From the NCBI GenBank assembly GCA_018433765.1, contig JAHDQO010000006.1, positions 1-64,000 of the forward strand: a DNA stretch of 64,000 nucleotides, in the 5' to 3' direction. Shown here one piece after another: positions 1-52,422 of the stretch; position 1 is the first letter of the stretch, and each line of letters opens with the position of its first letter. The position numbers and the translations under genes are program-made. The DNA comes from Tissierellales bacterium. GTDB taxonomy: Bacteria > Bacillota > Clostridia > Tissierellales > Sedimentibacteraceae. The notes below the pieces were generated by a model. It was not told the DNA's origin and did no database searches. It was given only the letters and a program-made list of their open reading frames with translations.

Positions 1-137
1 AGTCAACAAGATGGCAGGCTTTTGAGAAACTCGAAGTTCGAGGCGTGCCGAAAGCGAGTAAGCGGAGCGTATATAGAAATACGTGAGCATTCTCGATTGA
101 GGCAACAACGATGAAATTCGGGTTTGTCAATAGCCTG
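1..137 (+). repeat. dispersed structured repeat, copy 1 (left end cut off by window)
   Basis: About 130 of 137 bases match the repeat at 50165-50316. The left end is missing because the window starts inside it. As + strand RNA it can fold into an outer stem (CAGGCT 15-20 with AGCCTG 132-137), a stem TTGAGAA 22-28 with TTCTCGA 90-96, and two hairpins inside it (30-42 and 67-84). It ends exactly where a perfect hairpin (138-158) begins, downstream of the eamA stop. No ORF of note is inside. I do not recognise a named family; it looks like a MITE or a mobile structured RNA. Confidence 0.85.
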
Positions 138-158
138 AGCTATCTTAGTCAGATAGCT
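138..158 (-). terminator. hairpin after eamA; terminator remnant or half
   Basis: AGCTATCT (138-145) and AGATAGCT (151-158) form a perfect 8-bp stem with a 5-base loop, just after the eamA stop. Reading on the minus strand no T-tract follows; the dispersed repeat follows directly. This mirrors the copy of the lrp terminator hairpin at 50317-50339, so the T-tract-bearing copy may lie beyond the window start. Confidence 0.5.
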
Positions 159-48919: not shown

Positions 48920-49201
48920 TTACTTAAATAAGATATAACAATATTATATATATGTTCAACCATGCTAGATTAGAATTGTATTAAATATTTGTTATTATTA
49001 ACTATTTATACATATATTTAGTATCTTATTATATTTTTTTAAGTATTTTTATTACATTTTTTATATATACTTAAAAAAGTATTACTTTTTTGTAATAAAA
49101 TGTAAAGAAAGGCCGCAAAAAATACAAAATAACCCTAATACACTTATTTTTAATTTAATAGCATACTGGATTATAATATATATTATTTTAATTTAAATTA
49201 C
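48920..49201. other. AT-rich gap between rex and gdhA
   Basis: No ORF. It contains runs such as TTTTTTAAGTATTTTTATT and the short dyad AAAAAAGTA-T-TACTTTTTT near 49075-49093. On the minus strand AAAATAA/TTATTTT followed by GTATTTTTT near 49108-49133 could be a weak rex terminator. Nothing else identified. Confidence 0.5.
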
Positions 49202-49843
49202 TTAGTCATTTATAATTTTATTTTTATAATAATATGTTAAAGCAAACAAACTTTCATTTAAATGAACATTTTCTAAAACTATATCTTTAGGTAATTTAAT
49301 ATCTGTTGGTGCAAAATTCCATATTGCTTTTATGCCACCTTTTATAAGCTTATCAGCTATTTTTTGACTGACACTTTTTGGAGTACATAATACAGCTATA
49401 TTTACTTCATTAAGTTCTAAAAAATCATCTAAATCGTCAATATCCTGTATAGTTTTATCTCTTATAGACAGACCTATTAGCTTTGGATTTTTGTCAAACA
49501 ATGCAACTACATCATATCCCTCTTCATAAAAACCAGTATAATTTGCAATTGCCTGCCCTATATTACCTGCACCTACAATTATAATTTTATATTTCCTATC
49601 AAGCCCTAATATTTTACCTATTTCATTTCTTAAATTTGAAACATCATATCCAAATCCTTGCTGACCAAATCCTCCAAAATTATTTAAATCTTGTCTTATT
49701 TGTGAAGCTGTAAAACCAGTCATATCACTTAATTCCTTTGATGATGTTCTGCTGATTCCAATTTTTGAAAGTTCTCCAAGATATCTATAATATTTAGGTA
49801 ATCTTCTTATTACAGCAGTTGATATTTTTTTGCTCTTATCCAT
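49202..49843 (-). CDS. rex: redox-sensing transcriptional repressor Rex
   Basis: 213 residues, typical Rex. An N-terminal winged helix (VIRRLPKYYRYLGEL, TASQIRQDLNNFGGFGQQG) is followed by an NADH-binding Rossmann domain with IIVGAGNIGQAIANY near residue 90. It senses the NADH/NAD+ ratio and represses fermentative and reductive genes. AAAGGAGGT precedes the ATG. No clear Rex operator was found in this window. Confidence 0.97.
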   Translation of the reverse strand: MDKSKKISTAVIRRLPKYYRYLGELSKIGISRTSSKELSDMTGFTASQIRQDLNNFGGFGQQGFGYDVSNLRNEIGKILGLDRKYKIIIVGAGNIGQAIANYTGFYEEGYDVVALFDKNPKLIGLSIRDKTIQDIDDLDDFLELNEVNIAVLCTPKSVSQKIADKLIKGGIKAIWNFAPTDIKLPKDIVLENVHLNESLFALTYYYKNKIIND

Positions 49844-50141
49844 AAAATACCTCCTTTAATACTATATTTTATCAATATTTATACAATTATGCAACACCAT
49901 TTATTAATTTTTACTATATCCAAAATATTGATATTAATTATTATCACTACACTATAGTTTTTTCTATAGCGAAATAATCAATTATATGCGTTACTTTATT
50001 TACAAATTTATGTATAAATGTACAAATGATCTTATTTTTAAAAGAAGTCACTACGTAACTTCCGCTATAGGAACATTTCCCCCTTTGTCATAGAAATACT
50101 ACAAAAACTTCCCGTCCTTGATATCCTAGTATTTAAAAAAG
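49844..50141. other. rex upstream region
   Basis: No ORF. It contains CTATAG-N6-CTATAG (49952-49969) and GAAGT-N9-ACTTC (50045-50063), both small dyads with no known meaning. Confidence 0.45.
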
Positions 50142-50164
50142 GAATTTACACAAGTAAATTCCTC
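50142..50164 (-). terminator. lrp terminator hairpin, distal copy with T-tract
   Basis: AGGAATTTAC/GTAAATTCCT form a stem around a 4-base loop; on the minus strand it is followed by TTTTTTAAAT. The 23 bases 50142-50164 recur exactly at 50317-50339, on the other side of the dispersed repeat. Confidence 0.85.
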
Positions 50165-50316
50165 AGATTGTTGACAAAGTCAACAAGATGAAAGGCTTTT
50201 GAGAAACTCGAAGTTTGAGGCGTGCCGAAAGCGAGTAAGCGGAGCGTGTATAGTAATACGTGAGCATTCTCGATTGAGGCAACAACGATGAAATTCGTGT
50301 TTGTCAATAGCCTGGC
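50165..50316 (+). repeat. dispersed structured repeat, copy 2 (complete, 152 bp)
   Basis: Nearly the same as 1-137. It is flanked by a perfect 23-bp direct repeat that equals the lrp terminator hairpin, as if inserted there. It has inverted ends TTGACAAA (50171-50178) and TTTGTCAA (50300-50307), and a small hairpin GTTGAC-AAA-GTCAAC at 50170-50184. The inner RNA fold matches copy 1, and the two substitutions in its internal hairpin stems both turn Watson-Crick pairs into G-U pairs in + strand RNA. No coding potential of note. Family unknown to me. Confidence 0.9.
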
Positions 50317-50339
50317 GAATTTACACAAGTAAATTCCTC
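50317..50339 (-). terminator. lrp terminator hairpin, proximal duplicate without T-tract
   Basis: Exact duplicate of 50142-50164, 9 bp after the lrp stop. On the minus strand it runs straight into the dispersed repeat, so it lacks the T-tract. Confidence 0.8.
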
Positions 50340-50348
50340 TATAGTTAT

Positions 50349-50774
50349 TTAAATAGGTTTTCCATCAATAGGACTTGACATTATTATATATGTTTCTGTA
50401 TTACCATAAGATTGAACTTTCCCTACTAATTCTTCTAAATGAGGCATCGCCCTTAAATGTGCTTTCATTATCATGCTATACGGACCAGTTACGTGATGAC
50501 ATTCTACTATTTCCTCTGAATTTCTTGCAAACTCCAAAAATTTATCCTGCTTTTCAGGCTTTATTGATGCATTTATTAATACACATATAGGTTTACCAAT
50601 TTTTTCAGTATTTACTATTGCTTTGTATTTTTCTATTATTCCTGACTCTTCTAATCTTCTTACTCTTTCTGCAACTGCAGGAGGACTCAAAGAAACTAAT
50701 TTGCCTAGATCTTTCATGGAAATTCTTCCGTCGTCTTGTAAAATATCAACTATTTTCAAATCTGTATAATCCAT
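50349..50774 (-). CDS. Lrp/AsnC family regulator
   Basis: 141 residues: N-terminal HTH (DLKIVDILQDDGRISMKDLGKLV, SPPAVAERVRRLEESG) and a C-terminal ligand/oligomer domain (VTGPYSMIMKAH). Members sense amino acids and control their metabolism. GAAGGTGAT precedes the ATG. Divergent from the carboxyltransferase gene at 51049 (274-bp gap), which is a candidate target. The terminator of this gene carries the repeat insertion. Confidence 0.92.
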   Translation of the reverse strand: MDYTDLKIVDILQDDGRISMKDLGKLVSLSPPAVAERVRRLEESGIIEKYKAIVNTEKIGKPICVLINASIKPEKQDKFLEFARNSEEIVECHHVTGPYSMIMKAHLRAMPHLEELVGKVQSYGNTETYIIMSSPIDGKPI

Positions 50775-51048
50775 TTTTATATCACCTTCTTTTAAAATGT
50801 TATTTATAATATTATGAAATAAAAATAAGCATATTACTTTGTATTCGTAATTTTATTTATGTACAAATAATAATTTACATGCTAATATTAAGCTATAATT
50901 AGTATATAAATTATAACATAATTATATTAAGTATTTCAATAAAAAACTTTAATTTAATAACATTTTTATAAGCATTTTATATAATAATAGAATGTGGTAA
51001 CGTATTCAAATTAACATTTTTGATATACAGTAAAGAAAGGAGATTGTT

Positions 51049-52422
51049 ATGGGAAAGTTAAAAATTACTGAAACTGCTTTACGTGATGGTCACCAATCAC
51101 TAATTGCAACTAGAATGACGACAGATGAAATTCTTCCAATATTAAATAAAATGGATAATGTTGGATATTATTCCATGGAAGTTTGGGGAGGAGCAACTTT
51201 CGATTCCTGCCTAAGGTTTTTAAATGAAGATCCGTGGGAAAGATTAAAAAAAATAAGAAATGTAGTTAAAAACACAAAACTTCAAATGCTGTTAAGAGGT
51301 CAAAATATACTTGGTTACAGACATTACCCAGATGACATAGTTGAGTTGTTTTTAAAAAAAGCTATATCAAATGGTATTGACATTGTAAGAGTATTTGATG
51401 CTCTAAACGACGTTAGAAATTTGCAGAAATCTATTGATGTAATTAAAGAAGAAGGAGCTCATTGCCAATGTGCAATCTCATATACTACAAGTAATATTCA
51501 TACTCTTGAATACTATGTTGATTTAATTAAAAAATTTGAAGAGGCAGGAGCTGATTCAATTTGTATAAAAGATATGTCGGGTATATTGCTGCCATATCAA
51601 GCTTATGACTTAATAAAAGCAATTAAAGAAACTACTGACCTTCCTATAGAATTGCACAATCACTGTACTAGTGGAATTGCTTCTATGACACTTATAAAAG
51701 CTGTCGAAGCAGGTATTGATATCGTTGATACTGCTATATCTCCATTTGCTTCTGGAACATCTCAGCCTCCAACTGAATCAATTGCATATACTTTTAAAGA
51801 TACTGAAAAAGATCCTAAACTAGACATGAATGCACTTGTTGATATTGCATCATATTTTAAAGATATTAGAAGTAAGTATTTAGAAAATGGTACTTTAAAT
51901 CCTAAAGTATTAATGACAGAGCCTAAAACTTTATTATATCAAGTACCAGGCGGTATGCTTTCAAATTTATTATCTCAGCTTGAAACACTTAATGCAGTAG
52001 ATAAATATGAAGAAGTTTTAGCTGAAGTTCCAAAAGTCCGTAAAGACTTAGGATATCCGCCACTTGTTACTCCTATGAGCCAGATGGTAGGAATACAATC
52101 TGTCTTCAATGTTGTTACAGGTGAAAGATATAAAATGGTTCCTACTGAAATCAAAAAATATGTTCAAGGTTACTATGGTAAATCTCCAGATAAAATTTCT
52201 AACGAAATAAAGAAAAAAATCATAGGTAATGCAGAAATTATAACTGTAAGGCCAGCAGATTTATTAGAAGATGAATTCGAAAAATGCAAAAAAGAAATAA
52301 ATGAATTATATGAATCAACTGAAGATGTTTTATCATATGCACTTTTCCCACAAGTTGCTAAAAACTTCTTAGAAGGAAGAAAGATTGACAATTATGATAA
52401 AGCAGAAGGATATGTTGGTTAA
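51049..52422 (+). CDS. oxaloacetate decarboxylase alpha / pyruvate carboxylase B type carboxyltransferase, without biotin domain
   Basis: 457 residues with the TIM-barrel carboxyltransferase and its helical end. LRDGHQSLIATRM holds the metal-binding Asp, and IELHNHCTSG the His-x-His metal pair. The family's biotinyl domain (AMKM) is absent, so it must work with a separate biotin carrier protein, which is not in the window. It could serve oxaloacetate or methylmalonyl-CoA decarboxylation or pyruvate carboxylation. GAAAGGAG before the ATG. Divergent from lrp and ended by a terminator. Confidence 0.88.
   Translation: MGKLKITETALRDGHQSLIATRMTTDEILPILNKMDNVGYYSMEVWGGATFDSCLRFLNEDPWERLKKIRNVVKNTKLQMLLRGQNILGYRHYPDDIVELFLKKAISNGIDIVRVFDALNDVRNLQKSIDVIKEEGAHCQCAISYTTSNIHTLEYYVDLIKKFEEAGADSICIKDMSGILLPYQAYDLIKAIKETTDLPIELHNHCTSGIASMTLIKAVEAGIDIVDTAISPFASGTSQPPTESIAYTFKDTEKDPKLDMNALVDIASYFKDIRSKYLENGTLNPKVLMTEPKTLLYQVPGGMLSNLLSQLETLNAVDKYEEVLAEVPKVRKDLGYPPLVTPMSQMVGIQSVFNVVTGERYKMVPTEIKKYVQGYYGKSPDKISNEIKKKIIGNAEIITVRPADLLEDEFEKCKKEINELYESTEDVLSYALFPQVAKNFLEGRKIDNYDKAEGYVG

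Follow-up and report, generated by a model that had tools for sequence, protein, structure and literature searches.

A short repeat that duplicates terminator hairpins in Tissierellales is probably a non-autonomous relative of IS1182-family insertion sequences

Introduction

MITEs and other small bacterial repeats that are mobilised in trans are short, contain no open reading frame, end in terminal inverted repeats and are present in many copies. The insertion sequence IS1272/TnSha1 of Staphylococcus, a member of the IS1182 family, targets hairpins, including terminators, with no sequence preference; in the accessible parts of the two papers on it, insertion is accompanied by partial or whole loss of the stem-loop and no target duplication is described (PMC4923244, PMC5678879). 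The figure of the 2017 model for IS1272 includes duplication of the whole stem-loop as a possible pathway b and duplication of the loop as pathway c (PMC5678879). IS1630, an IS30-family insertion sequence of Mycoplasma fermentans, was described in the title of a 1999 paper as an element that targets and duplicates inverted repeats whose length varies (cited in PMC3317919), and the text of the citing paper gives duplications of 16, 23, 25 and 26 bp in four copies (PMC3317919).

Here, we propose that a 151-bp repeat downstream of the lrp gene, in a 64,000-nucleotide stretch of DNA from a Tissierellales bacterium (contig JAHDQO010000006.1 of assembly GCA_018433765.1; hereafter the window), is a non-autonomous, MITE-like DNA transposon whose movement is driven in trans by an IS1182-family DDE transposase, a reading to which we assign a probability of roughly 0.85. 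The repeat has the traits of MITEs named above, and differs from them in duplicating a whole hairpin at its target and in carrying an interior fold that is found across genera. It has hairpin targeting in common with IS1272/TnSha1 but differs, as far as the available text on that element goes, from its loss of the stem-loop without duplication. IS1630 is alike in its duplications (16-26 bp), whereas it belongs to another transposase family and is autonomous. Closer at hand, IS1182 insertion sequences of the same order (NF033551) have similar ends, of the type CAGRYTGNNGACAAAG, and duplicate whole palindromes at 10 of 30 loci examined, but are about 1.5-1.7 kb long and encode a transposase. Because of branch b of the IS1272 model and the duplications given for IS1630, both as far as those sources were available, the hairpin-duplicating behaviour is of a known kind, and the element family offers a clear example of branch b in nature. 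A literature search (open-licence papers, mostly without full text) found no published description of the element itself.

Materials and methods

Copies were sought in the window's own assembly (4.19 Mb, 38 contigs). For alignment A1, 37 sequences were chosen, three of which (L016, L119 and L200) were dropped, the end pattern not having been found in them, so that 34 were used. A profile made from these 34 elements gave 160 unique instances in 281 loci; the 92 that are full length and flanked by 50 or more bases on either side make up the full-copy set.

Results

The insertion behind lrp

The exact 23-base repeat GAATTTACACAAGTAAATTCCTC that drew attention to the locus in a preliminary description is present at 50142-50164 and 50317-50339. 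The element between the two copies, first delimited as 152 bp (50165-50316), is likewise real, and comparison with other copies moves its borders to 50164-50314 (151 bp, CAG...CTG). The target duplication is also real, with 24 bp (50140-50163 and 50315-50338) a better reading than 23: the C that closes the 23-base repeat opens the element on the left side (50164) and lies in the flank on the right, and the right target copy departs from the left one at two bases, both at its start. The inverted ends noted earlier, TTGACAAA/TTTGTCAA, are genuine and belong to terminal inverted repeats about 16 bp long, of which they make up the inner portion (Table 1). As first described, only the lrp-distal copy keeps the T-tract: an A-run adjoins the left hairpin copy alone and, because lrp lies to the right on the minus strand, this run is a minus-strand T-tract and the left copy is the distal one. 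The locus is confirmed as a single insertion event that duplicated its target, a terminator hairpin; the inserted element is too short to encode a transposase of its own and is one case of a family.

Table 1. Features of the locus and of related loci (positions are those of the window)
Feature	Position	Strand	Remarks
Left target copy, terminator hairpin AGGAATTTACACAAGTAAATTCCT	50140-50163	.	with A-run 50135-50140; lrp-distal, keeps minus-strand T-tract
Mobile element, 151 bp, CAGATTG...AGCCTG	50164-50314	+	40 copies in genome, 92 full copies overall, alignment A1
Left terminal inverted repeat CAGATTGTTGACAAAG	50164-50179	+	15 of 16 bases match ends CAGACTGTTGACAAAG of IS1182-family loci L151, L158
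Hairpin 1, TTGTTGAC-AAA-GTCAACAA	50168-50186	+	one pair varies on both sides between genomes
Outer long stem, 5' strand AGGCTTTTG	50193-50201	+	internal partner of the element's right end
Right terminal inverted repeat	50299-50314	-	minus strand reads CAGGCTATTGACAAAC; compare IS1182 locus L159
Right copy of duplicated hairpin	50315-50338	.	lrp-proximal, first two bases altered, without T-tract
lrp, ORF of 141 aa, reads as Lrp/AsnC-type regulator	50349-50774	-	its terminator was hit; named by reading
Second element copy, 5'-truncated	1-137	+	at contig start; right hairpin copy 138-158 follows
IS1182 loci with duplicated palindromes			L149, L152, L154, L155, L157, L159, L162, L164, L165, L177

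Copies and their flanks

The window's genome holds about 40 copies (40 scored matches among 67 candidates), which are 92-100% identical across the element, and the left-end pattern occurs at 41 places compared with none for a reversed-pattern control. Contig ends interrupt ten of the 40 copies; the other 30 retain both flanks. The preliminary description had proposed examining other copies for duplicated flanks, and these were found at 29 of the 30 two-flanked full copies, L019 being the exception.

Across the full-copy set, flank duplication (Smith-Waterman score of at least 12) was seen in 88 of 92 copies and in only 16 of 600 mismatched left/right flank pairs, which excludes chance. What is duplicated is a hairpin: 87 of the 88 duplicated flanks form one of at least 5 bp (the exception is L264), compared with 32 of 88 after shuffling. 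The duplicated target differs in sequence and in length (13-31 bp) from site to site, its two copies are identical in 54 of the 88 cases, and the right copy starts with A in 73. Counting against the pattern are the four full copies without duplication (L019, one copy at L109, L196 and one copy at L275). Among 31 left-end instances, 12 have no exact downstream repeat, and several of these are decayed or truncated copies at sites shared by genomes G006 and G018. At L014 and L023 the stems of the duplicated hairpins match and the loops differ between the two sides, as would result from loop inversion or later change.

The copies are also oriented. Once tandem arrays and L263 are dropped, 36 of 80 copies have an A run of four or more on the left side only and 7 a T run on the right side only, an excess that indicates a tendency of the element to be oriented against the terminated transcript; the copies are related and these counts are hence not independent. 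The polarity is 18 to 2 in the window's genome and 18 to 5 in the others together, 25 to 8 with runs of five or more, and 37 to 10 of 88 before the arrays and L263 were dropped, counted in slightly different windows. Mechanically called ORFs next to 32 copies in the window's genome (both minus 11, both plus 6, convergent 8, divergent 5, one side unknown 2) do not make a convincing case for a gene-orientation bias, although their direction (11 to 6) agrees weakly with the tract polarity.

Relatives and an empty site

A search of 61 genomes, the window's own included, gave matches in six. The longer matches in relatives are 68-75% identical to the window's element and belong to elements of 148-152 bp set between duplicated hairpins, and the full-length diverged elements of four genomes (G005, G012, G018 and G056) show similar behaviour. 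One of them, Clostridiaceae bacterium M8S5 (G056), has tandem hairpin-element arrays. In Sedimentibacter hydroxybenzoicus DSM 7310 (G012), hairpin 1 is missing from 10 of 15 further stretches, and these have no clear duplication. These copies (L188-L195, L197 and L198) start at or near an inner repeat, AGGCTGTTGAAAAAG, and several are bordered by a hairpin on the right alone or by no hairpin, which would fit an inner unit capable of moving, or of being trimmed, independently. A search with one G012 element gave no plasmid or phage match.

The comparison with relatives lacking the element, which the preliminary description had proposed, was made for one insertion, a diverged copy in G018 (L098) whose flanks are alike in G005 and G021. 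The site reads hairpin-element-hairpin in G018 and is a single uninterrupted palindrome in G005. In G021 it holds another sequence with element-like ends, which we read as a decayed element.

IS1182-family insertion sequences of the same order

Among 249 Tissierellales genomes, 49 have IS1182 matches at E 1e-60, and 41 have matches above the curated cut-off (NF033551). At 10 of 30 IS1182 loci examined, a whole palindrome of 19-44 bp is duplicated beside the terminal repeats (Table 1), and L160 is a probable further case. The ends of these elements read, for example, CAGATTGATGACAAAG and CAGACTGTAGACAAAG, while L164 and L165 begin GAG...TCGAAAAA. The other 20 loci, which count against the proposal, lack a clear whole-hairpin duplication: three have short repeats of 8-10 bp, one is masked, several are cut by contig ends, and the rest are unclear or without duplication. 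By reading, the 8-9 bp repeats of L173 and L176 lie on the loop side of a palindrome, the 10-bp repeat of L166 is palindromic in itself, and L167 and L171 look inserted into an inverted repeat without duplication. In sequence, there are hints from a few cases that GACAAAG-type ends may go with whole-hairpin duplication and CTGAAAAA-type ends (L166, L173 and L176) with repeats of 8-10 bp. Whole hairpin, short loop-region repeat and no duplication suggest several outcomes inside one transposase family. Another IS1182 element, L126 in G006, carries an internal deletion; a terminator hairpin adjoins it on one side and an incomplete repeat of that hairpin (13 of 14 bases) on the other.

The ends of the short element resemble those of these insertion sequences. 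In relatives this is seen by BLAST: a G012 element agrees at its left end with IS1182 locus L177 in all 16 bases (E 0.004) and at its right end with L175 and L176 in all 18 (E 0.0002), and a G056 element agrees at its right end with L160, L162 and L172 in all 15 (E 0.014). Both L175 and L176 are among the 20 loci without clear whole-hairpin duplication, L176 having the short repeat. For the window's copy, BLAST against the IS1182 loci gives only 12 of 12 bases (E 0.85), which counts against the link, whereas by reading its left end shows one mismatch in 16 bases with L151 and L158.

No intact IS1182 transposase gene was found in the window's genome, where two fragments are present and where an assembly in 38 contigs may hide repeats. 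The IS1182 transposase gene fragment at L060 (G000 C13:421136-421297) is a C-terminal part. The domain PF05598 (DUF772) gave one sub-threshold match in this genome (E 0.22). The complete genome of G056 has one IS1182 transposase fragment alone, which also counts against the link.

A conserved interior fold

The 34 aligned elements yield 37 consensus pairs. Under this structure 97.6% of cells pair, compared with 34-41% when it is slid by 1 to 3 columns; 150 cells are changed on both sides (shuffle mean 51.8), and the covariation score is 0.368 compared with 0.156 in shuffles. On two measures that are less swayed by relatedness, pairs with both-side change number 15 versus 13.4 in shuffles (8 of 500 as high) and further pair types 37 versus 36.0 (190 of 500 as high). 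Two of the five covariation measures are barely or not above the shuffles; the fold is kept, but the alignment does not show a high count of independent paired changes.

The fold is better on the plus strand in 33 of the 34 elements, and the reverse-complement alignment folds to 23 pairs at -15.3 kcal/mol, compared with 37 pairs at -32.5. G-U pairs outnumber A-C pairs by 142 to 6, a count biased by the structure having been chosen on the counted strand. Of 391 genomes of the class searched with a covariance model, 7 have matches at E 1e-4, including the window's own; the matches are clear in G315 (five places), G451 and G466 and near the limit in the other three, and the match in G257 is mostly hairpin 1. 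Two of ten covariance-model loci gave no match region, and the rest are mostly without a clear hairpin on both sides.

Two possible sources of the core were rejected. There was no Rfam match at E 5 (window 49000-51500) or at E 1 (eight related loci), which argues against a known RNA family, and a 150-bp model of the element gave seven weak matches in 34 IS1182 loci (best E 0.0033, at L161, the others at least 0.035), which argues against derivation from an IS1182 interior.

Discussion

In proposing that the repeat is a MITE-like transposon, we rely on its being short (151 bp), non-coding, bounded by terminal inverted repeats and present in about 40 copies, along with its target duplications and one empty site, that of the diverged G018 copy. 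That it is probably a non-autonomous relative of IS1182 elements follows from the resemblance of its ends to theirs and from the whole hairpins duplicated at a third of the IS1182 loci examined; a link drawn from short ends and target behaviour points to an IS1182 transposase as the probable mover. The preliminary description had taken the 23-bp length as a pointer away from known transposases, a view that does not hold: the duplicated unit is a hairpin, of whatever length, and IS1182 elements of the same order behave alike. Nor is a case for an unknown kind of transposase supported, IS1630 too having been titled as duplicating inverted repeats of variable length.

How might such an element move? 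The transposase would bind element ends of the type CAGRYTGTTGACAAAG and would recognise the target palindrome by its shape, as an extruded hairpin or a cruciform. The element ends would then be joined to the 5' foot of the hairpin on each strand, giving a staggered joint that would span the hairpin, and gap repair would leave two hairpin copies, one on each side. Because this joint would span the whole hairpin, the length and sequence of the duplication would track the hairpin; because terminators offer strong hairpins in abundance, copies of the element would accumulate between genes at terminators; and because the gene-distal copy retains the T-tract, termination could survive. At terminator sites, the element is predicted to lie inside the 3' end of the transcript.

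Could another transposase be responsible? Mobilisation by an IS30-family (IS1630-like) enzyme, the other DDE family known for duplicating inverted repeats, would account for the target, given that IS1630 is described, in the part of the source available, as targeting and duplicating variable-length inverted repeats, with 16-, 23-, 25- and 26-bp duplications in four copies (PMC3317919). We nevertheless reject it as very unlikely, since the IS30 transposase model (NF033563) has no match in the window's genome and the element ends look like those found at IS1182 loci of Tissierellales.

The interior fold invites a further question. It may have been kept through a need for it in movement, through passive descent or through repeated transfer. 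Since it is kept between genera, is strand-favoured and recurs with different ends in other families of the class, and since the element has a preferred orientation relative to terminator polarity, we entertain, as a tentative and rather doubtful proposal, that the core acts as a conserved strand with a structure of its own, either RNA or single-stranded DNA, on which the element depends, perhaps for engaging hairpin targets or the terminator machinery. If so, this would be a non-autonomous transposon with a working nucleic-acid part and shape-guided insertion. A fold that is better on one strand would also fit a structured RNA that moves by reverse transcription, SINE-like, with the hairpin duplicated by target-primed synthesis, and the G012 copies without the left part and hairpin 1 could be 5' truncations; even so, inverted-repeat ends like those of a DNA transposon family with duplications of the same kind make this account highly improbable. 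Least probable of all is that there was no transposition and that recombination, slippage or tandem duplication at hairpins made the hairpin-element-hairpin units, an origin that the tandem arrays of G056 would fit but that is contradicted by the many unrelated sites, each with its own duplicated hairpin, by the empty site in G005 and by terminal inverted repeats like those of insertion sequences.

The mobile element read here, a probable IS1182 relative, provides dozens of natural insertions, each with the whole of its target hairpin as the duplicated unit. It illustrates DNA insertion guided by the shape of the target and not by its sequence, and it makes shape-directed choice testable. In several genera of a single order, this non-coding family makes second copies of the terminators behind genes, and it carries a conserved fold that is absent from Rfam.

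Longer variants also occur in the window's genome: in L071 and L090 the core is lengthened by an additional insert of about 60 bases and a hairpin stands on both sides, and L092 is a truncated copy of this longer variant. The element family in addition breaks draft assemblies. The window's contig itself begins within an element copy, which together with its right hairpin copy, AGCTATCTTAGTCAGATAGCT, spans window positions 1-158; as the left hairpin at the end of contig C28 (L026) has the same sequence as that hairpin copy, C28 and the window's contig are probably neighbours. Other contig ends pair likewise, namely the end of C29 with the start of C32, the end of C1 with the start of C33, and the start of C34 with the start of C18.
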